From positions 1 to 64,000 of the IMG/VR virus record IMGVR_UViG_3300047554_000536: a stretch of 64,000 nucleotides of DNA; one strand, written 5' to 3'. The translations under genes and the position numbers were made by a program. The DNA is from a virus. Below are positions 11,829-64,000 of the stretch, piece after piece. The notes under the pieces were generated by a model. It was not told the DNA's origin. It ran no database searches and saw nothing but the letters and a program-made list of their open reading frames with translations. The stretch's first letter is position 1. Every line of letters begins with the position of its first letter.

Positions 11829-12611
11829 ATGAAAGCAGGAAGAATTACAGATTACGATAAGAAACTGCCAATAGTAGAACTATACTATTGTGTGCAGAGC
11901 GAAGGCTCCAGAGCGGGCTTTCCAACAGTAGCAGTCAGAACAACCGGATGTACTCACAGATGTTGGTTTGGTGAAGGTGGTTGGTGCGACTCTTGGTATA
12001 CAAGTATCCATCCAGAGAAGGGTGGTTTTACTTTTAACGATATCATCAAGATGTATGACGAACGTCCAGACATTAAGGAGATGATGTTGACGGGTGGATC
12101 ACCAACAATGCACCCAGATTTAGTTAACGAATTAACCCACCTAGCAAATGAAAGAGGTATTGTTATTACGATGGAGACAGAAGGTAGTCACTTCATTGAA
12201 ACAGATTACCCAATCGGTCTCATATCTCTCAGTCCTAAGTTTAGCAATAGCGTACCTAAGTTGGGAGTACTTACACCGAAAGGTATCGCAGTTGATCAAA
12301 AGATGATCGACAAGCATAACAGCTTACGTTTGAATTACGAAGCCATGAAGCAATCAATCGCATACCATACGAACTACCATTTCAAGCCGGTATGTAATCC
12401 AGTTGAGATGCCAGAGATTTGGGAACAGATTGAAGCATTCAGAGTTGAGCTTGGTATTCCTAAGAATAAAACTTGGATCATGCCTCCAGGAGATAACCGT
12501 GAGGAATTGGTCAGAGTCTATCCAATGGTGATTGACTTCTGCACAGAGAATGGATATAATTTTACCGGTCGTGAGCACATCATTGCATTCGACACAAAAC
12601 GAGGAGTATAA
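11829..12611 (+). CDS. queE: QueE-like radical SAM 7-carboxy-7-deazaguanine synthase
   Basis: Converts 6-carboxytetrahydropterin to 7-carboxy-7-deazaguanine (CDG), with S-adenosylmethionine and a 4Fe-4S cluster. VELYYCVQSEG (16-26) matches the QueE substrate-binding start. Cluster cysteines are C41, C45 and C53, giving CX3CX7C rather than the radical-SAM CX3CX2C. LTGGSP at 87-92 fits the SAM-binding GGE-like motif. 260 aa. Confidence 0.8.
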   Translation: MKAGRITDYDKKLPIVELYYCVQSEGSRAGFPTVAVRTTGCTHRCWFGEGGWCDSWYTSIHPEKGGFTFNDIIKMYDERPDIKEMMLTGGSPTMHPDLVNELTHLANERGIVITMETEGSHFIETDYPIGLISLSPKFSNSVPKLGVLTPKGIAVDQKMIDKHNSLRLNYEAMKQSIAYHTNYHFKPVCNPVEMPEIWEQIEAFRVELGIPKNKTWIMPPGDNREELVRVYPMVIDFCTENGYNFTGREHIIAFDTKRGV

Positions 12612-12778
12612 TGCACGAAATACTACACTTTATAGGATTATGTCCAGATAGCTTTGCTCACTTCGATCTACTAGACTTGTTTGTTGCAAACTATCCAAAT
12701 TTATCCTATATTAATTTAAACACAATTAAATACTATGTTACAGAACGCATTTCAAGTAGAGGAGCTACTACAAACTAA
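12611..12778 (+). CDS. small phage protein, 55 aa
   Basis: Starts at ATG 12611 on the queE stop (TAATG) and ends at TAA 12776-12778, inside the next gene. Begins MHEILHFIGLCPDSFAHFDL, a pattern I associate with short phage proteins next to metabolic genes. The promoter for the next gene lies within it. Function unknown. Confidence 0.55.
   Translation: MHEILHFIGLCPDSFAHFDLLDLFVANYPNLSYINLNTIKYYVTERISSRGATTN
12684..12714 (+). promoter_or_regulatory. Bacteroidota-type promoter, GTTGCAAA class
   Basis: GTTGCAAA 12683-12690, 20 nt after TTG, TATATTAA 12707-12714, 20 nt before the dCTP deaminase-like start. Confidence 0.6.
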
Positions 12779-13217
12779 CGATAAAGGCTCAAGAGCTCAG
12801 GTAGGGTATGACCTTACTCTGAAAGGTGTGAAACGAATTATGGGTGGAGCTGTTATGTCAGATAAGACGGCAGTAGAAGATTACCACGAAGTAGCGCCAA
12901 TGATTAATGCAGATGGGAAGTTTATTTACAAACTTAGTGCAGGAGCTTATTCATTAACCTTTGAACAGGGTTGTAAGCTACCAAACAACATGACAGCTTT
13001 TATTCGTCATCGTTCTAGCGTACTTCGTTGCGGAGCTATCATTACCTCAGGTGTATATGATCCAGGATTTGAAGTTGATGAGATGGGTGGTGTAATGATC
13101 GTTACTGAACCTATTATCATTGAGAAGGGTGCTCGTGTAGCTCAAATCATTATGTTTGAGAACAATGAGGCAGAATTGTATAACGGCCAATGGCAAGGTA
13201 ACAAAGACTTAAAGTAA
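12735..13217 (+). CDS. dcd: dCTP deaminase / dUTPase-fold protein
   Basis: Likely deaminates dCTP to dUTP or belongs to the same beta-barrel superfamily. FIRHRSSVLRCGAIITSGVY then DPGFE matches the Dcd RSS...G...DPGF region with the catalytic Glu, and GARVAQIIMFENNEAELYNG then QWQG the C-terminal Y-x-G-x-x-Q-G motif. 160 aa, a little short for Dcd. Works with dUTPase and ThyA toward dTTP. Confidence 0.75.
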   Translation: MLQNAFQVEELLQTNDKGSRAQVGYDLTLKGVKRIMGGAVMSDKTAVEDYHEVAPMINADGKFIYKLSAGAYSLTFEQGCKLPNNMTAFIRHRSSVLRCGAIITSGVYDPGFEVDEMGGVMIVTEPIIIEKGARVAQIIMFENNEAELYNGQWQGNKDLK

Positions 13218-13558
13218 TGAGGAAGTTCGTAGAAGTTCGTTTAGATATTGAAGGTCTGCATAACTGGCCTGATTGCAATCTACCACACGTAGAGTACTTA
13301 GCACATCTACATCGTCACACATTCCAGATCCTTTGTCGAGCAGAGGTATCGCACGGAAATCGTGACATTGAGTTTATTGATCTCAAACACAAAATCAAAC
13401 AACACATTGCAAAGACTTGGTATGATCCAGCTTATGGATGTTGTAACTTTGGAGCAATGAGTTGCGAAATGATCGCAGAAGATTTATTAAACTACTTTGG
13501 TTTGTGTAGATGTTCTGTATCAGAAGATGGAGAATTCTTTGGAATTGTTGAGATTTAG
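13217..13558 (+). CDS. queD: QueD-family protein, compact
   Basis: 113 aa, TAATG-coupled to the previous gene. H15 (GLHNWPDC) and H32-R-H34 (YLAHLHRHTFQI) give the three zinc histidines of QueD/PTPS, and RDIEFIDLKHKIK fits the substrate-binding D/F-x-D-L strand. The product would be 6-carboxytetrahydropterin for QueE. Shorter than typical QueD (about 120 aa), with three extra cysteines (CCNFGAMSC). Confidence 0.68.
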   Translation: MRKFVEVRLDIEGLHNWPDCNLPHVEYLAHLHRHTFQILCRAEVSHGNRDIEFIDLKHKIKQHIAKTWYDPAYGCCNFGAMSCEMIAEDLLNYFGLCRCSVSEDGEFFGIVEI

Positions 13559-13569
13559 TCGTATATTCG
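13539..13569 (+). promoter_or_regulatory. Bacteroidota-type promoter
   Basis: TTG 13539-13541, 20 nt, TATATTCG 13562-13569, four nt before the kinase-like gene start. Confidence 0.5.
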
Positions 13570-13573
13570 TATC

Positions 13574-14041
13574 ATGTTAAAGACAAAGAGAATCGTTTTA
13601 CTATTTGGTAAAATCTGTAGTGGCAAAAGTACTTACGCAGATGCTTTATGTTATATCACAAAAGCAAAGCGAATTACTGTGTCGGACATTGTAAAAAGAG
13701 TTTCGGGTAAGAATACTCGTAGCGAATTGCAAAACACACAGAACCTTGATATGCAGATTGCTCAGGAGCTAATCGCTGAGATTGAAAAGTATGAGAGAGT
13801 TGTTGTTGATGGTATCCGTCAGGCAAGTATTGTATGGGGTCTAGTAAACGAATTTGGCTTTGACAACATTGATATGATTTGGCTAGAAGCTGCTGACGAT
13901 GTTCGTAAGTATAGATTCTACGATCGATCAATCGCAAAGGATGATTTAAGTTTTGAAGAAGCAGATGCAAGAGATGAAGAGTTAGGTCTTGGAGGTGTTG
14001 CAAAAGCGTTTGAGAATTGGTATATTAAAGTAAATAACTAA
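13574..14041 (+). CDS. P-loop nucleotide kinase-like protein
   Basis: 155 aa. The Walker A is FGKICSGKSTYAD (residues 11-23). VVVDGIRQ is a lid/LID-like region typical of deoxynucleoside monophosphate kinases and related enzymes, and YRFYDRS may supply phosphate-binding arginines. A dNMP kinase would fit the nucleotide context; an adenylate-kinase-like or chaperone-type P-loop role cannot be excluded. Confidence 0.65.
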   Translation: MLKTKRIVLLFGKICSGKSTYADALCYITKAKRITVSDIVKRVSGKNTRSELQNTQNLDMQIAQELIAEIEKYERVVVDGIRQASIVWGLVNEFGFDNIDMIWLEAADDVRKYRFYDRSIAKDDLSFEEADARDEELGLGGVAKAFENWYIKVNN

Positions 14042-14047
14042 TAAGAG

Positions 14048-14695
14048 ATGGAGTTAATTAAAAAAGCAAATGGAAACATTCCTCGTACAGAAGAGGAAAA
14101 AAAGCAGATGATTGAGAAAGCTGCTGAGTATTATGGTGGTTTCTTAACAGCTTTAGGCTTCGATTGGAAAGCGGATCCACACAGTGATCGTACACCACAT
14201 CGTGTAGCTAAAGCTTGGGTAAACGATTTGATCGCAGGATCAATCTCACCAGAACCTGAGATTACAGCATTCCCTAATGATGAGGGTTATACCGGATTGA
14301 TCTGTCAAACACGCATTCCAGTAATGAGTATGTGTGCACATCACAACCTAACATTCTCAGGAGTAGCTCACGTAGCATATATTCCAGGTAAGGAGAAAGA
14401 TGATATGGTTGTTGGATTAAGTAAGTTGAATCGTATTGTAGATTTCTACTCACGTCGTCCAAACATTCAAGAGTCTTTAACTAAGCAGATTCATGACCAC
14501 ATCGATCGTTTGTGTATTGGTAATCGTGGAGTAGCTGTAGTTATTGAATCTCAACACAATTGTGTTAAGTGTCGTGGTATCAAACATGAGTCAGTAATGA
14601 AGACATCTCAAATGTCAGGTTACTTCTGGACTAACGAGATTGGAACAAGACAAGAATTTTTTAACCTTATAGATCAAAGTCGTTATGGAGCCTAA
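14048..14695 (+). CDS. folE: GTP cyclohydrolase I
   Basis: Makes dihydroneopterin triphosphate from GTP, the first step of both folate and 7-deazaguanine synthesis. Zinc ligands C96 and H99 (MCAHH) and C172 (HNCVKCRG) are present, with DPHSDRTPHRVAKAW and GLSKLNRIVDFYSRRPNIQE typical of the family. 215 aa. Its place between QueD, QueE and the DpdA-like gene argues for base modification, not folate. Confidence 0.92.
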   Translation: MELIKKANGNIPRTEEEKKQMIEKAAEYYGGFLTALGFDWKADPHSDRTPHRVAKAWVNDLIAGSISPEPEITAFPNDEGYTGLICQTRIPVMSMCAHHNLTFSGVAHVAYIPGKEKDDMVVGLSKLNRIVDFYSRRPNIQESLTKQIHDHIDRLCIGNRGVAVVIESQHNCVKCRGIKHESVMKTSQMSGYFWTNEIGTRQEFFNLIDQSRYGA

Positions 14696-20064: not shown

Positions 20065-20361
20065 ATGAGTAGTGTATTCGAACCTATTAGCGATAAGCTA
20101 GTATGCAAACCTGTCGAACAGGATGAAATTAGCTCAGGTGGTATCTTATTGCCTGAAGTGGATGATCAAAAAACATTAAAAGCAGAGGTAGTGGAAGCCG
20201 GTAAAGGTTTCTGGGCAGCTCCTAGTCTGTTTGTGGAAACAACCTGCAAACCTGGAGACATTGTAATCTATCAGCGCTTCGCAGCCCAAGTAATGGAGTA
20301 TGATGGTGTAGACTATCATATCGTACAAGAGCGCGACTTACTAACAAAAATCAAAAAGTAA
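20065..20361 (+). CDS. groES: GroES co-chaperonin
   Basis: Heptameric lid for GroEL. FEPISDKLVCKPVEQDEISS matches the GroES N-terminus (rpl.DrvlV), with mobile loop about residues 20-36 (SSGGILLPEV) and PGDIVIYQRF then AAQV. 98 aa, standard length. Two bp before groEL. Confidence 0.88.
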   Translation: MSSVFEPISDKLVCKPVEQDEISSGGILLPEVDDQKTLKAEVVEAGKGFWAAPSLFVETTCKPGDIVIYQRFAAQVMEYDGVDYHIVQERDLLTKIKK

Positions 20362-20363
20362 AT

Positions 20364-21971
20364 ATGAGCAAGACAAAGGTTTTAAGTTTCAATTCAGAAG
20401 CGCGCGACAAAGTGCGTAGTGGTGTTAATCAGTTATCATCTGCAGTTCAAGCAACACTAGGGCCAAAAGGTCGTAACGTGATGATTGAGCGTGAGCATGG
20501 TGGTCCAGTTATCACAAAGGATGGTGTATCAGTAGCTAAGGAGATTTATCTAAAAGATCCAGTAGAGAATGCAGGTGCACAAGCCTTAAAAGAGGTTTCA
20601 ATGAAAGCAGCTAAGATGGCTGGTGATGGTACAACTACCGCAACCGTATTGGCAGCTTATATGTACAACGAAGGTTTGAAAGCAATCAATGCTGGTCACA
20701 ATCCTATCGAGCTTAAGCGTGGTATGGATAAGGCGTCAGCAGCAGTTATTGATAATCTTCGTGAGATGAGTCGTGACGTAGTCACAAATGAAGAAATCCA
20801 ACAAGTAGCAACAATCTCAGCAAACAACGATTCAACAATCGGAGCAATCATTGCTGAGGCTATGGAAAGTGTTGGTAAGAATGGTGTGATCCAGGTGGAC
20901 GAGTCTAAGACTTCGGAGACTACATTGGAGATTGTTGAGGGTATGCAGATTGAGCGTGGATTTGTTTCACCTTACTTTGCAACAAACAATAACACAATGA
21001 CAACTACATTGGAGAATCCGTACATCTTGATCTACGACCGTAAGATTAGCTCTGTTAAAGACATCTTACCATTGTTGGAGACTTGTAGTAAGCAAAACAA
21101 ACCACTCGTAATTATCGCTGATGATGTTGATGGTGAAGCTTTAGCTGCACTAGTACTTAACAAAGCTCGTGGTATCTTGAATGTAGTAGCAATCAAAGCT
21201 CCAGGATTTGGTGATCGTAAGATTCACAACCTAGAAGACATTGCTATCCTAACTGGTGGTACTGTTGTAGCACAGCAAAAGGCAATGAAGTTGGAGAAAC
21301 TGACAATCGAGATGTTAGGTACGTCACGTACTGTCACAGTTTCTCAAAATGAAACTATCATTGTGGATGGTGCTGGTGATTCAGAGGCTATTAAGGCTCG
21401 TATCGAAGAAATCAAAGCTCAGTATGAAAAAGCTGATAGCGATTACGAGAAACAATTCTTGAAAGAGCGTATGAGTAAATTGATTGGTGGTGTTGCAGTG
21501 TTAAACATTGGAGCAGCAACAGAGATTGAACTCAAAGAAAAGAAAGACCGCGTTGACGATGCATTGCATGCAACACGTGCAGCTGTTGAAGAAGGAATTG
21601 TTCCAGGTGGTGGTATTGCTCTATACAATGCATCACAAATTGATGTCGAGGTTGAGAACGAAGACCAAGAAGTTGGAGTTAAGATTGTTAAGAGAGCATG
21701 CTTTGCACCATTTAAAGCAATCGTAGAGAATGCAGGAAAGAGTGCTGAAGCTTTAGTAGCAAACATTGACAGCGATACTTGGGGTTATGATGCTCGTAAT
21801 GATCGCTTTGTTGATATGTTTGTAGCTGGTATTATCGATCCAACTAAAGTTACACGTACAGCAATCGAATTAGCTACATCAGCAGCTAGTACACTATTAA
21901 CAACTGAGTGTGTTATCAGTTTTGATCCTGAAGAGAAGGATGAGAAAGGGTCCGCACCAGCTTATTACTAA
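20364..21971 (+). CDS. groEL: GroEL chaperonin
   Basis: ATP-driven folding chamber. ATP-site motifs are clear: TLGPKGRNV, TKDGVSVAKEI, AGDGTTTATV, and PGGGIALY near the C-terminal half. 535 aa against about 545 usual; it ends SAPAYY and lacks the GGM-rich tail. Encoded with its own GroES, probably for folding large virion or replication proteins. Confidence 0.95.
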   Translation: MSKTKVLSFNSEARDKVRSGVNQLSSAVQATLGPKGRNVMIEREHGGPVITKDGVSVAKEIYLKDPVENAGAQALKEVSMKAAKMAGDGTTTATVLAAYMYNEGLKAINAGHNPIELKRGMDKASAAVIDNLREMSRDVVTNEEIQQVATISANNDSTIGAIIAEAMESVGKNGVIQVDESKTSETTLEIVEGMQIERGFVSPYFATNNNTMTTTLENPYILIYDRKISSVKDILPLLETCSKQNKPLVIIADDVDGEALAALVLNKARGILNVVAIKAPGFGDRKIHNLEDIAILTGGTVVAQQKAMKLEKLTIEMLGTSRTVTVSQNETIIVDGAGDSEAIKARIEEIKAQYEKADSDYEKQFLKERMSKLIGGVAVLNIGAATEIELKEKKDRVDDALHATRAAVEEGIVPGGGIALYNASQIDVEVENEDQEVGVKIVKRACFAPFKAIVENAGKSAEALVANIDSDTWGYDARNDRFVDMFVAGIIDPTKVTRTAIELATSAASTLLTTECVISFDPEEKDEKGSAPAYY

Positions 21972-45971: not shown

Positions 45972-46043
45972 GTATTAGTAGCTCAGTGGTAGAGCAGGCG
46001 GCTGTTAACCGTCAGGTCGTAGGTTCGAATCCTTCCTAGTACG
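45972..46043 (+). tRNA. tRNA-Asn(GTT)
   Basis: Acceptor GTATTAG/CTAGTAC, loop CTGTTAA, T loop TTCGAAT. CCA is not encoded, as in nearly all tRNAs here. Confidence 0.92.
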
Positions 46044-46049
46044 CAATAT

Positions 46050-46124
46050 TGCGGGATGCGTAGAAGTTGGTTATCTCGTCAGTCTCATAAGCTGAAGTCC
46101 CCGGTTCGAGTCCGGGTCCCGCAA
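46050..46124 (+). tRNA. tRNA-Met(CAT), first copy
   Basis: Acceptor TGCGGGA/TCCCGCA, loop CTCATAA. The initiator GGG/CCC anticodon stem is absent. Elongator Met, or Ile2 if lysidine-modified. Confidence 0.88.
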
Positions 46125-46130
46125 CATAAT

Positions 46131-46204
46131 GATCTCGTAGCTCAGTTGGATAGAGCACCTCACTTTTAATGAGGGAGTCGATGGTTCGAGCCCATCCGGG
46201 ATCA
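46131..46204 (+). tRNA. tRNA-Lys(TTT)
   Basis: Acceptor GATCTCG/CGGGATC, loop CTTTTAA, stem CCTCA/TGAGG. Confidence 0.93.
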
Positions 46205-46210
46205 CTTAAT

Positions 46211-46281
46211 ACGTCTGTGGTGAAATGGTATCATGCCGGTCTCCAAAACCGTTGTTGAGGGTTCGAATCCTTCCAGTCGTG
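46211..46281 (+). tRNA. tRNA-Trp(CCA)
   Basis: Loop CTCCAAA. Acceptor ACGTCTG/CAGTCGT has one T-T mismatch. Confidence 0.85.
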
Positions 46282-46286
46282 CAATT

Positions 46287-46359
46287 GCCTTCGTAGCTCA
46301 ATTGGCAGAGCACCGCACTTGTAATGCGGGGGTTGTAGGTTCGACTCCTATCGAAGGCT
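46287..46359 (+). tRNA. tRNA-Thr(TGT)
   Basis: Acceptor GCCTTCG/CGAAGGC, loop CTTGTAA. Confidence 0.94.
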
Positions 46360-46366
46360 CAAAAAT

Positions 46367-46440
46367 ATTGGTATAGCTCAATTGGTCAGAGCATTCGCCT
46401 GATACGCGAAAGGTTTCAAGTTCGAGTCTTGATATCAATA
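46367..46440 (+). tRNA. tRNA-Ile(GAT)
   Basis: Acceptor ATTGGTA/TATCAAT, loop CTGATAC, stem TTCGC/GCGAA. Confidence 0.9.
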
Positions 46441-46446
46441 CTACAA

Positions 46447-46519
46447 CTAGGTGTGGGAAAGTTGGTAATCCGCGGCATTTGGGATGCTGAGATCGCAGGT
46501 TCGAGTCCTGCCACTTAGA
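46447..46519 (+). tRNA. tRNA-Pro(TGG)
   Basis: Acceptor CTAGGTG/CACTTAG, loop TTTGGGA with G37 as expected for Pro. Confidence 0.88.
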
Positions 46520-46524
46520 CAAAC

Positions 46525-46598
46525 GGTCCTTTAGCTCAGTTGGTTAGAGCAGCTCGCTCATAACGAGAAGGTCTCAGGTTCGAGCCCTGAATGGACCA
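46525..46598 (+). tRNA. tRNA-Met(CAT), second copy
   Basis: Acceptor GGTCCTT/ATGGACC (one mismatch), loop CTCATAA. Could be the AUA-reading Ile2 form. Confidence 0.88.
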
Positions 46599-46602
46599 CA
46601 AA

Positions 46603-46728
46603 GGAAGTGCAAGAGAGTCCTTAATGCGCAAAGAAGATCCTTGCTGTACAGTGTGGAAAGACATACAAAATAGTTTTAACGGGGGCTCCGGTTCTATTCA
46701 AAAACGCGATTAGCCTTCACCACTTTCC
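46603..46728 (+). ncRNA. structured spacer, possible stable RNA
   Basis: GGAAGTG (46603-46609) can pair with CACTTTCC (46721-46728) with one bulge. Inside are further short stems. The 3' arm overlaps the tRNA-Val acceptor. No tRNA fold found. Confidence 0.35.
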
Positions 46729-46795
46729 TTAGCTCAGTTGGTAGAGCGTTGCCCTTACATGGCAAAAGTCGTTGGTTCGAGTCCAGCAGGGAAGA
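46723..46795 (+). tRNA. tRNA-Val(TAC)
   Basis: Acceptor CTTTCCT/AGGGAAG, loop CTTACAT, stem TTGCC/GGCAA. Confidence 0.93.
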
Positions 46796-46865
46796 CAAGG
46801 AGTTCTCGATCTCAAGTGCTGGTTAGTGAAACATCTAATCGATGAGCCCATCAAAATCAGAATAG

Positions 46866-46947
46866 GCCTGTATCGCATAGCGGCAATTGCAGCTGACTGT
46901 AAATCAGCTCCCTAACGGGTTCGGAGGTTCGAGTCCTTCTGCAGGCA
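46866..46947 (+). tRNA. tRNA-Tyr(GTA)
   Basis: Acceptor GCCTGTA/TGCAGGC, loop CTGTAAA, long variable arm as in bacterial tRNA-Tyr. The 70-nt spacer before it shows no clear structure. Confidence 0.93.
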
Positions 46948-46955
46948 CAAAAAAT

Positions 46956-47028
46956 GGACCGGTAGCTCAGTTGGTAGAGCGTTGGCCTGAAGAGCCAAGC
47001 GTCGGGGGTTCGAATCCCTCCCGGTCCA
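46956..47028 (+). tRNA. tRNA-Phe(GAA)
   Basis: Acceptor GGACCGG/CCGGTCC, loop CTGAAGA (G37 unusual for Phe). Confidence 0.92.
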
Positions 47029-47037
47029 CAATAATAA

Positions 47038-47110
47038 GCAGGTGTCGTATAATGGCTTATTACTCCAGTCTTCCAAACTGGAGATGAGAGTTCGATTCTC
47101 TCCACCTGCT
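47038..47110 (+). tRNA. tRNA-Gly(TCC)
   Basis: Acceptor GCAGGTG/CACCTGC, loop CTTCCAA. Confidence 0.93.
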
Positions 47111-47113
47111 CAA

Positions 47114-47194
47114 AAGACAGATACCCGACGGGGAACGTAGAAGCGCCGGAATGAATTAGCACTGTAGGTCCGGGACGTGTGCAAAGTCTGTCTT
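47114..47194 (+). ncRNA. structured non-tRNA segment in tRNA array
   Basis: AAGACAGA (47114-47121) pairs fully with TCTGTCTT (47187-47194). Inside: hairpin CCC-GACG-GGG near 47124-47133, and CCGGA (47146-47150)/TCCGG (47169-47173) next to ACGT/ACGT. 81 nt, tRNA-sized, but no anticodon arm or T arm. Confidence 0.5.
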
Positions 47195-47199
47195 ATCTT

Positions 47200-47272
47200 G
47201 GGGTTGTAGCTCAACTGGCTGAGCGTTACATTTGCAATGTAAAGGATGAGGGTTCGAATCCCTTCAGCTCCA
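47200..47272 (+). tRNA. tRNA-Ala(TGC)
   Basis: Acceptor GGGGTTG/CAGCTCC with wobble pairs, loop TTTGCAA. Confidence 0.93.
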
Positions 47273-47276
47273 CAAT

Positions 47277-47350
47277 CGGTCCATTGGTGTAATGGTTAAC
47301 ATGCGGCACTGTCTATGCTGCGCTACGAGTTCGATTCTCGTATGGACCGC
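47277..47350 (+). tRNA. tRNA-Asp(GTC)
   Basis: Acceptor CGGTCCA/TGGACCG, loop CTGTCTA. Confidence 0.92.
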
Positions 47351-47355
47351 TATCT

Positions 47356-47426
47356 TGTCCTGTAGTGAAATGGCATCACACGGCGTTTTGGCCGCTGGGT
47401 TAGAGGTTCGAATCCTCTCGGGACAA
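47356..47426 (+). tRNA. tRNA-Gln(TTG)
   Basis: Acceptor TGTCCTG/CGGGACA, loop TTTTGGC. Confidence 0.9.
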
Positions 47427-47431
47427 CAATT

Positions 47432-47517
47432 GGAAGAGTAACTGCAGCGGCCTGCAGCACTGTCTTGAAAACAGCTGGTACCTTGACCGGTATGGGGATC
47501 GACACCTCACTCTTCCG
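47432..47517 (+). tRNA. tRNA-Ser(TGA)
   Basis: Acceptor GGAAGAG/CTCTTCC, loop CTTGAAA, long variable arm. Confidence 0.92.
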
Positions 47518-47524
47518 CTTATAT

Positions 47525-47598
47525 GGTGTCTATAGCTCAGTAGGTAGAGCAAAGGGTTGTGGTCCCTTGTGCCGTGAGTTCGATTCTCACTAGTCACC
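47525..47598 (+). tRNA. tRNA-His(GTG)
   Basis: Loop TTGTGGT; extra 5' G at 47525 facing C73 at 47598, the His identity pair. Confidence 0.93.
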
Positions 47599-47603
47599 CA
47601 ATT

Positions 47604-47687
47604 GGAGAGTAAAGCAGTCAGGGCACTGTCACCGCCTGCTAAGCGAGTGGTACTTTCGAGTATGAATTTCGATTATTCTGCTCTCCG
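47604..47687 (+). tRNA. tRNA-Ser(GCT)
   Basis: Acceptor GGAGAGT/GCTCTCC, loop CTGCTAA, long variable arm. Confidence 0.9.
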
Positions 47688-47692
47688 CAAAT

Positions 47693-47764
47693 GCCTCTAT
47701 CGTTCAATGGATAGGACACGGCCCTTCTAAGGCTGTTATTGGGGTTCGAGTCCCTATAGAGGTA
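47693..47764 (+). tRNA. tRNA-Arg(TCT)
   Basis: Acceptor GCCTCTA/TAGAGGT, loop CTTCTAA. Confidence 0.92.
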
Positions 47765-47766
47765 CT

Positions 47767-47897
47767 AGGTGATAAAAAAGCGTAGGTTGGTAGACGTGGA
47801 GAGACGTGTCGCAAGGGTACACACTTAGCAGCTCTATTATGGTGTGTGAAGCACTGCTCAGCAGATCCCAGATTCCTGATAAAGCCAACCATCACCT
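47767..47897 (+). ncRNA. structured 131-nt non-tRNA segment
   Basis: AGGTGAT (47767-47773) and GGTTGG (47785-47790) pair with CCAACC (47885-47890) and ATCACCT (47891-47897): 13 pairs with an 11-nt bulge. Further stems (GTGT/ACAC, CACAC/GTGTG) lie inside. No tRNA core; no coding frame of interest. Confidence 0.5.
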
Positions 47898-47901
47898 TTC
47901 A

Positions 47902-47975
47902 TGCTCTGTTAGTTCAACGGATAGAACACTTGACTACGGATCAAGAGATAGGAGTTCGAATCTCTTACGGAGTAC
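47902..47975 (+). tRNA. tRNA-Arg(ACG)
   Basis: Loop CTACGGA, stem CTTGA/TCAAG. A34 needs conversion to inosine by a host TadA-type enzyme. Confidence 0.9.
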
Positions 47976-47980
47976 TAATA

Positions 47981-48052
47981 AGGTCAGTTTAGTCGTGGAG
48001 GCTGGTAGGTCTGCAAAACCTATGGAGTTGGTTCGATTCCAACATTGACCTC
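47981..48052 (+). tRNA. tRNA-Cys(GCA)
   Basis: Acceptor AGGTCAG/TTGACCT, loop CTGCAAA. Confidence 0.92.
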
Positions 48053-48067
48053 AAAAAAACAAAAGCT

Positions 48068-48523
48068 ATGAAGACGTTTAGAAGTTTAACAAACAGAAAG
48101 GAAGTAGATTTAATTCCTTACGTATCCAACTTTATCAAAGAAAATGATGACACAGTATTGTATGTTGGTTGTGACTCTCAGAACGTCCGCGACAATACAA
48201 ACTACGCTGTCGTGATCGTTTTGTATAATCCTGGAAAGGGTGGGCACGTATTGTATTCAAGAACCACAATGCCAAAGATTGAAGACCGTTACACTAAGTT
48301 GTGGAATGAGGTTGAGTATTCAATCGAGGTAGCAGAGTACTTAACTAACAATGGTATCCAACGTCCAAGCTATATTGACTTAGACTTGAATCCAGATCCA
48401 AAATACAAAAGCAATCAAATTTTGAGAGCTGCGCTTGGATATGTGGAGAGTATGGGGTATATTGCTAGATGTAAACCTAATGCAATGGTAGCATCTCACG
48501 TAGCAGATGCCTTATGTAAATAA
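48068..48523 (+). CDS. YkuK/DUF458-like RNase H-fold protein
   Basis: 151 aa, the only clear protein gene inside the tRNA region. VLYVGCDSQN gives the first Asp of an RNase H-like fold; YAVVIVLYNPGKGGHVLY and LWNEVEYSIEVAEYL (Glu) follow, and DLDLNP may give a third acidic residue. Matches the YkuK family. Could be an RNase or a diverged nuclease; a role in RNA processing near tRNAs is attractive but unproven. Confidence 0.72.
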   Translation: MKTFRSLTNRKEVDLIPYVSNFIKENDDTVLYVGCDSQNVRDNTNYAVVIVLYNPGKGGHVLYSRTTMPKIEDRYTKLWNEVEYSIEVAEYLTNNGIQRPSYIDLDLNPDPKYKSNQILRAALGYVESMGYIARCKPNAMVASHVADALCK

Positions 48524-48537
48524 GTTATCAACAGCTG

Positions 48538-48568
48538 TTGTCTAGGTGAACAAAAGTTCCTATCTTTA
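48538..48568 (+). promoter_or_regulatory. Bacteroidota-type promoter for tRNA-Leu genes
   Basis: TTG 48538-48540, 20 nt, TATCTTTA 48561-48568, 12 nt before tRNA-Leu(TAG). Confidence 0.72.
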
Positions 48569-48580
48569 CTGTATAGAAAT

Positions 48581-48658
48581 GCCCCTTTGGCGGAATTGGT
48601 AGACGCGCTAGACTTAGGATCTAGTCTTCGGGTGAGAGTTCGAGTCTCTCAGGGGGTA
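48581..48658 (+). tRNA. tRNA-Leu(TAG)
   Basis: Loop CTTAGGA, stem CTAGA/TCTAG, T loop TTCGAGT. Confidence 0.92.
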
Positions 48659-48663
48659 CAAAT

Positions 48664-48749
48664 GCTACTGTGGTGAAATAGGTAGACACGAGGGACTTAA
48701 AATCCCTTGGCCAGTGATGGTCGTGCCGGTTCGATTCCGGCCAGTAGTA
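48664..48749 (+). tRNA. tRNA-Leu(TAA)
   Basis: Acceptor GCTACTG/CAGTAGT, loop CTTAAAA, long variable arm. Confidence 0.92.
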
Positions 48750-48764
48750 CTAAATTAATTACAT

Positions 48765-48983
48765 ATGTGGAGTAAAGTGTTAAAGTTTGCAACCAATTTT
48801 TTATATTGGTTTTTAGGTTTCTCAATGATGGCATTGGGTGCAGAGCTTTTATTGATATGGCTCAAAGAAGATGGTTTTAGTATTACTGGTTTTATTCTAG
48901 GATTCATGGGTTACCTAATCCTACGACCAGCAGCTGAGTACTGGAAAGATCAACTCCTTAGTGTTTGGAAATCTAAAGAATAA
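48765..48983 (+). CDS. small membrane protein, 72 aa
   Basis: Two hydrophobic stretches, about 12-32 (FLYWFLGFSMMALGAELLLI) and 38-54 (FSITGFILGFMGYLI). Lies between tRNA genes. Probably inner membrane. Unknown role. Confidence 0.62.
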   Translation: MWSKVLKFATNFLYWFLGFSMMALGAELLLIWLKEDGFSITGFILGFMGYLILRPAAEYWKDQLLSVWKSKE

Positions 48984-48995
48984 GTTGTATATTCA
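48965..48995 (+). promoter_or_regulatory. Bacteroidota-type promoter for tRNA-Glu
   Basis: TTG 48965-48967, 20 nt, TATATTCA 48988-48995, 6 nt before the tRNA. Confidence 0.55.
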
Positions 48996-49001
48996 AACAA
49001 T

Positions 49002-49073
49002 GGCCCGTTAGTCTATCGGTTAGGACGCATCCCTTTCACGGATGAGAGACGAGTTCGATTCTCGTACGGGCTA
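49002..49073 (+). tRNA. tRNA-Glu(TTC)
   Basis: Acceptor GGCCCGT/ACGGGCT, loop CTTTCAC, stem CATCC/GGATG. Confidence 0.93.
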
Positions 49074-49088
49074 CTAAAATTAAAACAA

Positions 49089-49343
49089 ATGAAAAGGTTA
49101 CAAATCATCACATTGGCACTTTTAACAGCAGCTGCAACAATCACCTCTTGTACAGACAATCAACGTGCAAAGAATTGGGGTGGAACCGAAACAATCACAC
49201 TAAAACCAAACGAGCGAGTGCTTAACGTCACTTGGAAAGAGACTGAGATGTGGATTTGCACTCAGGATACTACTACCGGAGTTGTGTACTTCCGCGAGAA
49301 GTCTAACTGGGGTATGATGGAAGGTACGGTTATTTTGAAGTAA
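49089..49343 (+). CDS. small lipoprotein, 84 aa
   Basis: Signal peptide with lipobox: LALLTAAATITSC, Cys at residue 21. The mature part (WGGTETITLKPNERVLNVTW, then FREKSNWGMMEGTVIL) resembles a short phage lipoprotein family. Lies between tRNA-Glu and tRNA-Leu. May sit in the cell envelope and affect superinfection; unproven. Confidence 0.72.
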   Translation: MKRLQIITLALLTAAATITSCTDNQRAKNWGGTETITLKPNERVLNVTWKETEMWICTQDTTTGVVYFREKSNWGMMEGTVILK

Positions 49344-49351
49344 CCGACCAT

Positions 49352-49459
49352 AGTCAGGTGGCGGAATTGGTAGACGCTGCGCTTTATATCAGGTGTATAA
49401 AGGTGAATCTTGGTCGAAAGATTGCAACAAGAATACAGGTTCAAATCCTGTCCTGACTA
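49352..49459 (+). tRNA. tRNA-Leu(CAG), atypical
   Basis: Acceptor AGTCAGG/CCTGACT, typical Leu D arm (TGGCGGAATTGGTAGACGC), T loop TTCAAAT. The anticodon arm is odd: CTTTATA/TATAAAG enclose TCAGGTG, so U33-CAG-G37 is off-register. The variable region is about 32 nt and the total 108 nt, both too long. Confidence 0.68.
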
Positions 49460-49464
49460 CAAAT

Positions 49465-49477
49465 AATGCAGGTTCTT
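49465..49477 (+). repeat. 13-bp inverted repeat, left copy
   Basis: AATGCAGGTTCTT, exact reverse complement of 49850-49862. The two flank the next gene. Confidence 0.7.
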
Positions 49478-49503
49478 TGACATATTCAAAAAAAGGAAAC
49501 GAT

Positions 49504-49836: not shown

Positions 49837-49849
49837 ACTAACCCGTCAT

Positions 49850-49862
49850 AAGAACCTGCATT
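49850..49862 (-). repeat. 13-bp inverted repeat, right copy
   Basis: AAGAACCTGCATT, reverse complement of the left copy, 13 nt after the coiled-coil gene. Confidence 0.7.
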
Positions 49863-49877
49863 TAATTTTTGAAGACT

Positions 49878-50321
49878 ATGGAAAAATATTACATTTATTT
49901 AGATGACCTACGCACACCACGCCAAGAGGAGTTGGTAGATAGGCCACAATGGACAGTCGTAAGAAACTACGATGAGTTTGTAAACAAGATCACTGAGGTT
50001 GGTTTGGAGAATGTTGAACTCATCTCACTAGATCACGACTTAGGTGAGTCTGCGATGCAAGAGTGGCACACTAACGTATACCACAACTACACCTTAGATT
50101 ACAACAACATTACTGAGAAGACTGGAATGGATTGTACTAAGTGGTTGGTAGAGCAATGGTTGAATGGTGCACCAGTATGTCGTGTTATGGTTCATTCAGC
50201 AAATGCTGTTGGAAGTGCGAACATGATGGGGTATATTAACAACTACAAGCACATCCACCGCTTACCACAAGACTGCGCTAGATGGGTAGTGCCTCATGAT
50301 ATTGAAACAATTATAGGATAA
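49878..50321 (+). CDS. cyclic-phosphate-processing receiver-like (cREC) protein
   Basis: 147 aa from ATG 49878. YYIYLDDLRTP and LISLDHDLGES resemble receiver-fold domains predicted to act on cyclic phosphates in RNA repair. Phage context with RNA ligase and PNK-like kinase fits. Confidence 0.66.
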   Translation: MEKYYIYLDDLRTPRQEELVDRPQWTVVRNYDEFVNKITEVGLENVELISLDHDLGESAMQEWHTNVYHNYTLDYNNITEKTGMDCTKWLVEQWLNGAPVCRVMVHSANAVGSANMMGYINNYKHIHRLPQDCARWVVPHDIETIIG

Positions 50322-52954: not shown

Positions 52955-53707
52955 ATGAAAATTACATTAATATCAGATACACATACGAGACATCGTCATT
53001 GTGAGCAAGACTTACCAGGTGGTGACTTGCTGATCCACGCAGGAGACTTTATGAACTCTGGATATAGTCCATACGAGGCAGAAGAATTCTTCAAGTGGTT
53101 TGATGCAATTGAGCATTATGATACAAAAGTATTCATTGCAGGTAATCATGATCGTATAATGGAGAATGATCCTGAATGGGCTAGAGGTGTATTGACTGGG
53201 TATAAGACTATTGAGTATCTACAAGATGAGAGTCTAACGCTATACTACGATGGTCCTAATGGCGATCATCCAGAAGACAACGTTCGTATTTGGGGTGCAC
53301 CTTGGCAACCTGAGTTTTACAATTGGGCTTTCAATCTTCCTCGCAATGGTGAAGAGTTACGGGAGAAGTGGTCTTTGATTCCATCAAATACAGATATCCT
53401 CATTACACACGGTCCTGCTCAGACGTATCTAGATACATCAGGTGCTCCATACAACACACCGCTACTTGGGTGTGAGTTATTGAAAGAGCGTATTGAATCA
53501 ATTAGACCTAAGATCCATGTGTGTGGCCATATTCACGGTGGTCATGGTTACTACTTTAATGGGCACACTCACTTTTTCAATGCATCGATACTGGATGAGA
53601 GGTACAATTACGCCAATCTTCCATTCATGTTTACCTGGGATCAAGTAACAAATCAAATTATTTGGGATGAACCTGTTGCAAAAACGAAAAAGAGGTTGTA
53701 TATTTAG
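52955..53707 (+). CDS. calcineurin-like metallophosphoesterase
   Basis: 250 aa. ISDTHTR (D-x-H), HAGDFMN (G-D), AGNHDR (G-N-H-D), THGPAQ and GHIHGGHG give the full two-metal site. Substrate unknown; could act on nucleotides, RNA ends or phosphoproteins. A second member begins at 63.5 kb. Confidence 0.85.
   Translation: MKITLISDTHTRHRHCEQDLPGGDLLIHAGDFMNSGYSPYEAEEFFKWFDAIEHYDTKVFIAGNHDRIMENDPEWARGVLTGYKTIEYLQDESLTLYYDGPNGDHPEDNVRIWGAPWQPEFYNWAFNLPRNGEELREKWSLIPSNTDILITHGPAQTYLDTSGAPYNTPLLGCELLKERIESIRPKIHVCGHIHGGHGYYFNGHTHFFNASILDERYNYANLPFMFTWDQVTNQIIWDEPVAKTKKRLYI
53676..53706 (+). promoter_or_regulatory. Bacteroidota-type promoter, GTTGCAAA class
   Basis: GTTGCAAA 53675-53682, 20 nt after TTG, TATATTTA 53699-53706, 27 nt before ATG 53734. 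Confidence 0.68.
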
Positions 53708-60180: not shown

Positions 60181-60579
60181 ATGAAAGCTTTATATCTAGT
60201 CAGAGGAGTGCCTGGAGCAGGCAAGTCAACATTCGCTAAGTCATTAGGTGGTACACACTTTGAGACTGACGAGTTCTTTATGGACAAAGGTGAGTATAAG
60301 TTTGATCCAACCAAGATCAAAGAAGCACACCAGTCGTGTCAGAATTGGGTCAACACAGCTATGATTGTTAATCATACAACTGGAATGCATGAGACTATTG
60401 TAGTGTCTAACACATTCACTCAGGAGTGGGAGATGCAGCCTTACTATGATATGGCAAAGGCTTGGGGTTATAGAGTGTACTCTGTGATTGTTGAGAATCG
60501 TCATGAGGGTGTTAATCAGCATGGTGTTCCAGAAGAGAAGCTACAACAAATGAAAGATCGTTTTGAAGTAAAACTATAA
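60181..60579 (+). CDS. PNK-like P-loop kinase
   Basis: 132 aa. GVPGAGKST at 9-17 is the Walker A; THFETDEFF gives the D of the kinase; later KIKEAHQSC and ETIVVSNT match the polynucleotide-kinase/N4BP2-like kinase group. Probably phosphorylates 5'-OH ends. Four kb from the RNA ligase start of the same set is less than 1.1 kb downstream. Confidence 0.72.
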   Translation: MKALYLVRGVPGAGKSTFAKSLGGTHFETDEFFMDKGEYKFDPTKIKEAHQSCQNWVNTAMIVNHTTGMHETIVVSNTFTQEWEMQPYYDMAKAWGYRVYSVIVENRHEGVNQHGVPEEKLQQMKDRFEVKL

Positions 60580-60951: not shown

Positions 60952-61216
60952 AGAGCAAAAGCAAGAGCAAGCGGTTGTTGATCTTATCAACAAGATGTTT
61001 GAGATTGCTGGACATGAGGTTACTTACAATGACATCTTAGGGGTGGACAACTGGTTCCAACAGTACACAATGACTATGAAGCAGTCAGAGGAGTTTAGAG
61101 ATTGGGGTAAGAAGTATCTTGTTAAGACATTTCGAATGTCAGCCAAGAGAGCAGAGAACGAAATGATGTGGTTTAATTTACAATGGGGTTTAAAATATTC
61201 AGACTATGGAAAATAA
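60932..61216 (+). CDS. hypothetical helical protein, 94 aa
   Basis: Overlaps neighbours by 20 and 11 bp. Basic and helical; FQQYTMTMKQSEEFRDWG pattern resembles short phage proteins. No known function. Confidence 0.6.
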   Translation: MAKRLTREQKQEQAVVDLINKMFEIAGHEVTYNDILGVDNWFQQYTMTMKQSEEFRDWGKKYLVKTFRMSAKRAENEMMWFNLQWGLKYSDYGK

Positions 61217-62330
61217 TAATAGCGTATGTTACATTGGTACAATCGGAGAGATTCTACCAATAAGTGGAGCAGATAATATCGAGCTAGCGTTGGTCGGTGG
61301 CTGGCAAGCTATCATCAAGAAGGATGCATATGAGGTGAATGATTTAGTTATGATAGCTACTACAGATGCTATTATTCCACAAGCGCTTTCAGATGATATG
61401 AATGTCACTAGCTACCTACGCAAAGGTGGACGTGTGCGCACTGTTAAGTTGAGAGGTGTGTACTCAGAGTGCTTGATTATTCCAGTACAATACATTCCAT
61501 TCATGGATAACTACTACGATGGTAAGGACATGATGGACGTGATGGGTATCTACAAATACGAACCACCAGTACGTCAGGTACAATTATCATCAGGTCGTAA
61601 GATCCGATACCAAGATAATCCTAACTTCCATATCTACTACAAGTTTCCTAACCTAAAGAATGTAGCTGGAATGTTTACTGAGGGTGATTTAGTTGAGATT
61701 ACTAGAAAGATTCATGGTACAAATGCTCGCTATGGTATTGTGAAGAAGGCGAAGCTATCTTTGTGGGATAAGGTTAGAAAGTTCTTTACAAACAATCCAT
61801 GGATCGAGTATGAGTATGTGTACGGATCACATAACGTGGAGAAAGGTTCTGACTCTCAAGGATTCTACGATACTGATGTGTGGGCAACAATTGCAGAAAA
61901 GCATGATATTAAGAATGCATTGTGGGATTACGCTAAGACTCAAGGTCACAAAGCAATTGGTGAAGGTATTGTATTGTATGGAGAAATCTACGGAGCCGGT
62001 ATTCAAAAGAATTACGACTACGGACTGAGCCATACTGACTTCATGGGCTTTGATGTTAAGGTTAATGGTGAGTACGTCTCTACTTACAGAGCTTGGAAAA
62101 TTATTGAGCATCAGTTAAATTTGGAATATGTACCAATCTTACACTACGGTGAATGGTCTCAGGAGATCCAAGACAAGTACACATTCAACAACTATGTTGG
62201 AGATTCAAAGGTACCACACGAAGGTATTGTTATCAAATACTTCGACGGTTCACGTAACAAAGTAGCTAAGGTGATCAATCCAGATTACTTGATCTATGGA
62301 GAGAAGCATGACGTAGGAGATTCACACTAA
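61206..62330 (+). CDS. RNA ligase, DRB0094/Rnl5-like
   Basis: Seals RNA ends by an adenylated-enzyme route. Nucleophile K168 in RKIHGTNARYG (motif I), LYGEIYG (IIIa-like), HEGIVIKYF (motif IV) and KVINPDYL (motif V). The first 115 residues resemble an OB-fold domain placed N-terminally, as in the DRB0094 group. 374 aa. Confidence 0.83.
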   Translation: MENNNSVCYIGTIGEILPISGADNIELALVGGWQAIIKKDAYEVNDLVMIATTDAIIPQALSDDMNVTSYLRKGGRVRTVKLRGVYSECLIIPVQYIPFMDNYYDGKDMMDVMGIYKYEPPVRQVQLSSGRKIRYQDNPNFHIYYKFPNLKNVAGMFTEGDLVEITRKIHGTNARYGIVKKAKLSLWDKVRKFFTNNPWIEYEYVYGSHNVEKGSDSQGFYDTDVWATIAEKHDIKNALWDYAKTQGHKAIGEGIVLYGEIYGAGIQKNYDYGLSHTDFMGFDVKVNGEYVSTYRAWKIIEHQLNLEYVPILHYGEWSQEIQDKYTFNNYVGDSKVPHEGIVIKYFDGSRNKVAKVINPDYLIYGEKHDVGDSH

Positions 62331-63530: not shown

Positions 63531-64000
63531 ATGAAATTAGTATTAGAAAAAGGACAAAGGTTATGGTTTACGAGTGATACTCACTACAACCACACAAACA
63601 TCTGCTCAGCCACTACTAAGTGGACTAATGCTCAACGATTGACCAGAGAGTTCAAATCCCTTAGTCATATGAACGATGCATTGGTGAATAACATCAATGC
63701 ATTGGTTGGGGAGAACGATATTTTGATTCACTTAGGTGATTGGTCGTTTGGTGGATTTGAGAGTATTGCTGAGTTTCGTAACAGATTGGTGTGTAAGAAT
63801 ATTCACTTGGTACTAGGAAACCACGATCATCACATTCAACGAAACAAAGAGGGTATACAAAGCTTATTCAGTTCAGTACACGAGTACTTGTATTTGAATG
63901 TTGTACGTCCTGGTGTCACTACAAAGTCTGCTATGGAGCGATATGATTTTGTTTGTATGCACTACCCGATTGCTAGTTGGAATAACATGAACAACGGAGT
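63531..64000 (+). CDS. metallophosphoesterase, 3' end outside window
   Basis: Open to the window edge (about 156 residues). SDTHYNH, HLGDWSFGG and LGNHDHH give the D-x-H, G-D and G-N-H-D motifs of calcineurin-like phosphoesterases; MHYPI is the next conserved His. Starts four nt after a promoter. Confidence 0.82.
   Translation, partial: MKLVLEKGQRLWFTSDTHYNHTNICSATTKWTNAQRLTREFKSLSHMNDALVNNINALVGENDILIHLGDWSFGGFESIAEFRNRLVCKNIHLVLGNHDHHIQRNKEGIQSLFSSVHEYLYLNVVRPGVTTKSAMERYDFVCMHYPIASWNNMNNG

Follow-up and report, generated by a model that had tools for sequence, protein, structure and literature searches.

Why should a bacteriophage carry tRNA genes for every amino acid? The reasons for phage tRNAs have been debated for decades, and the question is raised in a sharp form by a locus in the IMG/VR virus record IMGVR_UViG_3300047554_000536, a 72,496-base record of an uncultivated phage. 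Bases 1-64000 of this record, here called the window, were analyzed. They hold an array of 24 tRNA genes, all on one strand, at 45972-49074, which between them have 23 different anticodons and serve all 20 amino acids. Among these genes lies a structured RNA, designated e4, and just beyond them an RNA with tRNA-like ends, designated a tRNA-capped element. We consider the locus to be a phage RNA gene cluster whose likely role, with a probability of about 0.55, is to insure phage protein synthesis against cleavage, depletion or decay of the host's tRNAs.

The tRNA array

The original prediction, made from the window sequence, described a tRNA set serving all 20 amino acids and comprising 25 tRNAs read by hand. 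A dense one-strand array at the stated position was confirmed by 22 ARAGORN calls (45972-49074), by 23 matches to the Rfam family RF00005 above its 29-bit cut-off (36-72.6 bits, including one at 49352-49459), and by a serine tRNA model, R2, that recovered both Ser genes. Of the hand-read tRNAs, 24 were borne out; the third Leu, at 49351-49459, is not a normal tRNA and is treated below.

The array starts (45972-46599, + strand, as for all features given here) with Asn-GTT, an initiator-like Met-CAT, Lys-TTT, Trp-CCA, Thr-TGT, Ile-GAT, Pro-TGG and a second CAT tRNA. Similarity comparison with relatives assigned the CAT types: one resembles the relatives' initiators, and the other is Met or Ile2. 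These genes are followed by Val-TAC (46723-46796), Tyr-GTA, Phe-GAA and Gly-TCC (46866-47111), Ala-TGC, Asp-GTC and Gln-TTG (47200-47427), His-GTG (47526-47599), Arg-TCT (47693-47765), Arg-ACG and Cys-GCA (47903-48052), Leu-TAG and Leu-TAA (48581-48750), and Glu-TTC (49002-49074), all found with both ARAGORN and RF00005. Both of these methods missed two divergent serine tRNAs, Ser-TGA (47433-47518; R2 28.9 bits, E = 3e-8; fold z score -2.4) and Ser-GCT (47604-47688; R2 41.8 bits, E = 4.5e-12). R2, for which 22 Ser tRNAs from the arrays of relatives were used, scores mainly sequence plus the T stem, short of a full fold test. Failure of several tRNAs in covariance-model scoring had been named as the result that would refute the hand-read set; only the two Ser genes failed it, and they were then backed by the relatives' model. 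Thus all 20 isotypes are represented, serine in dependence on R2. CCA is encoded in none of the 22 genes called by ARAGORN.

A chance origin of these matches is excluded by the scores together with the presence of similarly ordered arrays in independent contigs. With 24 tRNAs in 3.1 kb, the array falls within the definition of a phage tRNA gene cluster used in PMC6409571 (at least 15 tRNAs, at least 2 per kb). The claim that a full amino-acid set is rare in phages holds in that such sets are unusual, yet they are documented: in the 2019 survey, eight viral tRNA clusters had the complete set of 20 isotypes (PMC6409571), and Xanthomonas phage XacN1 carries 56 tRNAs (PMC5852040). The window set is therefore of an already known type, rare as full sets are. 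It shares with these examples the coverage of 20 amino acids and, with the survey clusters, high density, but it is smaller, having roughly one tRNA for each codon box, and has e4 and a capped RNA among its tRNAs. Whether it could provide the near-independent translation supply that had been suggested depends on how wobble is read. Four-way reading by U34 fits the suggestion, with only ATA and CGG (1.3% of phage codons) unread; strict wobble, which leaves 17.5% of phage codons unread, fits it less well.

A structured RNA between the arginine tRNAs

Element e4 occupies 47766-47902, between Arg-TCT and Arg-ACG. By comparative sequence evidence, it is a structured RNA whose helices covary and whose kissing pseudoknot is supported by compensatory substitutions. 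A covariance model, R1, was built from five e4 sequences, and the window copy, itself one of the five, scores 151.5 bits. A first core pattern matched 55 stretches in viral contigs, and the R1 search gave 56 loci (E = 7e-19 or better). A second pattern, in which helix P3 and the pseudoknot were left free, matched 102 stretches, from which 55 further loci were fetched and all confirmed by R1 (E = 1.3e-9 or better). The two pattern searches, confirmed by R1, thus give 111 viral-contig loci in total.

In an alignment of 36 copies, the proposed partners pair in 93.7% of cells, and 19 base pairs have changes on both sides. The covariation score for these copies is 0.388, compared with 0.167 in shuffled alignments (0 of 500 reached the observed score) and at most 0.123 when the structure was slid, a score favored by the structure having been drawn with knowledge of the scored sequences. 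In 78 distinct copies, helix P3 occurs as ACGT/ACGT, ACAC/GTGT, TATG/CATA, GCCG/CGGC and GCTG/CAGC. Among the same copies, both sides of the GAGAG/CTCTC loop-loop pairing change together, giving GAAAG/CTTTC, GAGAA/TTCTC and AAGAG/CTCTT in one copy each. The pairing of e4 is under strong selection. The support for the structure is entirely comparative, since single-sequence folding of e4, as of two other array elements (e1 and e3, see below), was not better than that of shuffled sequences.

The association of e4 with tRNA genes is close. Of 108 parsed loci, 106 hold a tRNA, with e4 on the same strand in all 106 and within 100 nucleotides of a tRNA in 100 of them. The upstream neighbor is Arg-ACG in 39 of the parsed loci, and the downstream neighbor is Arg-TCT in 48; placement between these two tRNAs is common. 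Conservation of e4 is 90% in the nearest record to the window, G001, in which the neighboring Arg tRNAs are lost, and 72% in locus L032. The largest viral contig among the e4 records measures 508 kb (L287). Near another copy, a group I intron-like match (L113:1017-1158, - strand; 34.2 bits) lies below the cut-off. Predicted tmRNA genes occur near tRNAs in phage loci L041, L040, L042, L249 and L290, the last two of which also contain e4.

No known RNA compared here accounts for e4. None of the 4227 Rfam families matched it in the window (E up to 10) or in eight homologous loci (E up to 1), and on this ground e4 was rejected as a tRNA, an RNase P RNA, a tmRNA or another RNA of known type. The T4 stable RNAs C and D (rnaC, rnaD) are similar in being non-tRNA species of about 120-140 nucleotides that lie in a tRNA cluster and adjoin tRNA-Arg, but the e4 model does not find them, even when filtering is disabled: in the T4 stretch, R1 scores at best 9.3 bits (E = 1.2), at a site outside both, and e4 was rejected as a relative of these RNAs. 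GOLLD and ROOL, structured phage RNAs of unknown function, are likewise often found near tRNA islands (PMC12286853), but they are much larger, GOLLD members exceeding 800 nucleotides, and e4 has no Rfam match. In named phages, blastn against 50,697 records returned no e4, and R1 had no match in seven stretches of named records, including those of T4 and Flavobacterium phage immuto. Three pattern matches in bacterial genomes were not upheld by R1.

tRNA-capped elements

The hand-read third tRNA-Leu (49351-49459) passes the RF00005 cut-off at 39.7 bits, yet its anticodon arm is non-canonical. It consists of an acceptor stem, the start of a D arm and a T arm around a non-canonical middle, as seen in the family alignment and in a test for a canonical anticodon arm (5-bp stem, 7-nucleotide loop, U33), which it lacks. 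It shares with relatives only its ends, AGTCAGGTGGCGGAA...ACAGGTTC(A/G)AATCCTGTCCTGACTAC, and the middles do not align. A functional tRNA-Leu was ruled out on these grounds.

A search with the 3' end matched at least 120 viral stretches, and the family comprises at least 155 distinct viral elements of 71-190 nucleotides; some of the longest may be two neighboring elements joined. Among the matches listed, 143 middles formed 119 clusters and are thus mostly unrelated; a canonical anticodon arm was present in 2 of 155 elements, compared with 2.15 in shuffled sequences; for 67 elements the locus fetched contained no ordinary tRNA; and a search of gene neighborhoods for a protein partner found no neighbor common to most loci. 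The same arm was present in 495 of 588 ordinary array tRNAs. The near-constant ends are set by the 3'-end search and the end-pairing script, whereas the variable middle is not so fixed. In named phages, a 30-base query gave only T-arm matches, in Enterococcus phages. One 5 kb locus (L135) carries five tRNA-capped 3' ends.

In engineered tRNA-scaffold RNAs, an insert takes the place of the tRNA anticodon arm. From such constructs (PMC3753655) the capped elements differ in being natural and hypervariable. As far as the searched libraries and open papers extend, both e4 and the capped elements are undescribed; the motif lists of structured-RNA surveys (e.g., PMC8040213) lay outside this comparison. 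The capped elements demonstrate how a separate RNA class can be hidden when annotation relies on RNA models or on visual reading. Both families can be counted by search patterns that can be rerun, and e4 also by a covariance model.

RNA-repair genes

Approximately 420 bases past the last tRNA-like gene lies a gene (49878-50321) for a protein with a predicted cyclic-phosphate-processing receiver domain, cREC (PF20274, E = 1.3e-22). Farther downstream are a calcineurin-like phosphoesterase (52955-53707; PF00149, E = 4e-14), a P-loop kinase, possibly a polynucleotide kinase (60181-60579; PF13671, with matches to phrog_2071 ATPase and, more weakly, phrog_505 polynucleotide kinase), and an RNA ligase with an OB-fold domain (61206-62330; PF09414 and PF21189; phrog_968, E = 3.9e-59). 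A probable metallophosphoesterase, recognized by its motifs and with homologs in e4 loci, begins at 63531 and continues beyond the window end at 64000. The cREC proteins and ATP-grasp RNA ligases of jumbo phages have been predicted to reverse host tRNA cleavage (PMC7824862), and the role of cREC in processing cyclic phosphates is itself a prediction published there. The window resembles these phages and T4, with its Pnkp and Rnl1, in having an RNA ligase, a P-loop kinase and cREC in one genome. As to T4-type repair, the ligase match is clear, and the kinase has an AAA_33 domain only and a weak polynucleotide kinase match; unlike the T4 enzyme, it is a short stand-alone domain, no 3' phosphatase was recognized, and the genes are spread over approximately 12 kb.

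The cREC and RNA ligase genes tend to accompany e4. Compared with five hand-picked, non-random relatives lacking e4, cREC was found in 16 of 20 e4 records and in none of the five, and the RNA ligase in 16 of 20 (15 above the curated cut-off) and in one of the five. The window DNA polymerase was found in only 5 of the 20 e4 records, and the helicase of these records ranged from 100% to 25% identity or was not found; this divergence implies that the link between e4 and repair spans more than one close lineage.

Possible roles of the locus

The proposed scheme is as follows. The phage encodes a minimal, almost complete tRNA set and, besides the tRNAs, one or more structured RNAs, e4 among them, as well as a tRNA-capped RNA that lacks a canonical anticodon arm. 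The array RNAs would be co-transcribed and processed at the flanking tRNAs, and the set would keep phage translation going when the host's own tRNAs are cut, run low or decay. Cut RNA could be resealed by cREC, predicted to open cyclic phosphates, together with the kinase and the RNA ligase. Phage tRNAs have been proposed to counter anticodon nucleases (PMC10264068), and the occurrence of e4 together with repair genes is compatible with, though no proof of, a safeguard against the cleavage of host tRNAs. As a guess, e4 might bind a protein that acts on tRNA, being either a tRNase decoy or inhibitor or a factor in tRNA maturation, an assignment we make only tentatively. With similarly low confidence, e4 may represent a new phage noncoding RNA class in tRNA defense or maturation, and the capped elements a second, hypervariable class in which tRNA ends serve to release and protect small effector RNAs. 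Its position almost only beside phage tRNA genes, and its co-occurrence with repair genes, make e4 a concrete experimental handle on the debate over phage tRNAs.

Several observations weigh against translation insurance. The anticodon loops, inspected by eye in the phage sequence, look ordinary. Arrays without e4 exist among relatives, two e4 copies (L264 and L298) lie in fetched loci of 9.7-12.6 kb in which no tRNA was found, and the e4-less records compared above were chosen by hand. G001 (127 kb), whose DNA polymerase is 100% identical to that of the window, has only four tRNAs (by model): the bulk of the array is missing there, e4 and the Leu-Leu-Glu part remain, and cREC and the RNA ligase are retained. 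The array is thus not always needed, although the G001 record may be incomplete; the array site itself is covered on both sides. The suggestion of defense against host tRNA cleavage gains from the ligase, kinase and cREC genes and their co-occurrence with e4, and loses from G001, which keeps repair genes without most of the array.

Other explanations were weighed on the same evidence. A phage that shuts down or degrades host RNA might resupply all tRNAs even without any host defense; a set for every amino acid suits such general, rather than targeted, loss, but the RNA-repair genes point to cleavage, and we regard simple replacement as rather unlikely. Codon compensation, in which tRNAs adjust the pool to a phage codon usage differing from that of the host, is the usual explanation for phage tRNAs (see PMC10264068). 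Codons of the phage were counted here; a full set of roughly one tRNA for each codon box, without bias to rare codons and with Trp and an initiator-like Met included, makes this explanation improbable. Finally, the array might be a recombination and homing hotspot whose RNAs, including e4 and the capped elements, are partly selfish passengers. Loci found via an RNase H-like gene of the array carry 21-27 tRNAs in similar order or reduced arrays, and order and content vary among relatives; this variation, the loss of most of the array in G001, and capped elements that are often solitary with mostly unrelated middles would all suit a hotspot. Order is nevertheless partly conserved, several related arrays keep nearly all amino acids, and e4 pairing is strongly selected, so that this origin is very unlikely. 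Translation insurance remains the preferred interpretation.

Other features of the array and the window

Further non-tRNA parts lie within the array. Element e1 (46600-46722) precedes tRNA-Val in three related arrays with 90-92% identity, and element e3 (47112-47199), which follows tRNA-Gly and contains a stem with paired changes between relatives as read from the alignment, is 82-84% identical in the same three; both are conserved in L021, L023 and L026 only. The gap e2 (46797-46865) had no homolog found. The RNase H-like protein gene (48068-48523; PF04308, E = 8e-27) lies inside the array and adjoins arrays in relatives as well. Two small open reading frames (48765-48983, between tRNAs, and 49089-49343) are without Pfam matches. 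Just after the array, a small open reading frame is flanked by an inverted repeat seen by eye, GCAGGTTCTT/AAGAACCTGC, at 49470-49481 and 49848-49859.

The window has a GC content of 40%, with nearly every gene on the + strand. The DNA polymerases of the window and of phage immuto (Immutovirus) share 47% identity, and the order of replication genes is partly the same. On these two grounds the phage lineage appears related to Immutovirus. From this kinship only, the host phylum is likely Bacteroidota. Immuto differs in having four annotated tRNAs in its first 50 kb, and its whole record gave no cREC, RNA ligase or e4 match. Gene order common with immuto also indicates candidate GroES/GroEL-like and queuosine-pathway-like genes at 20065-21971 and 11829-14695 of the window.

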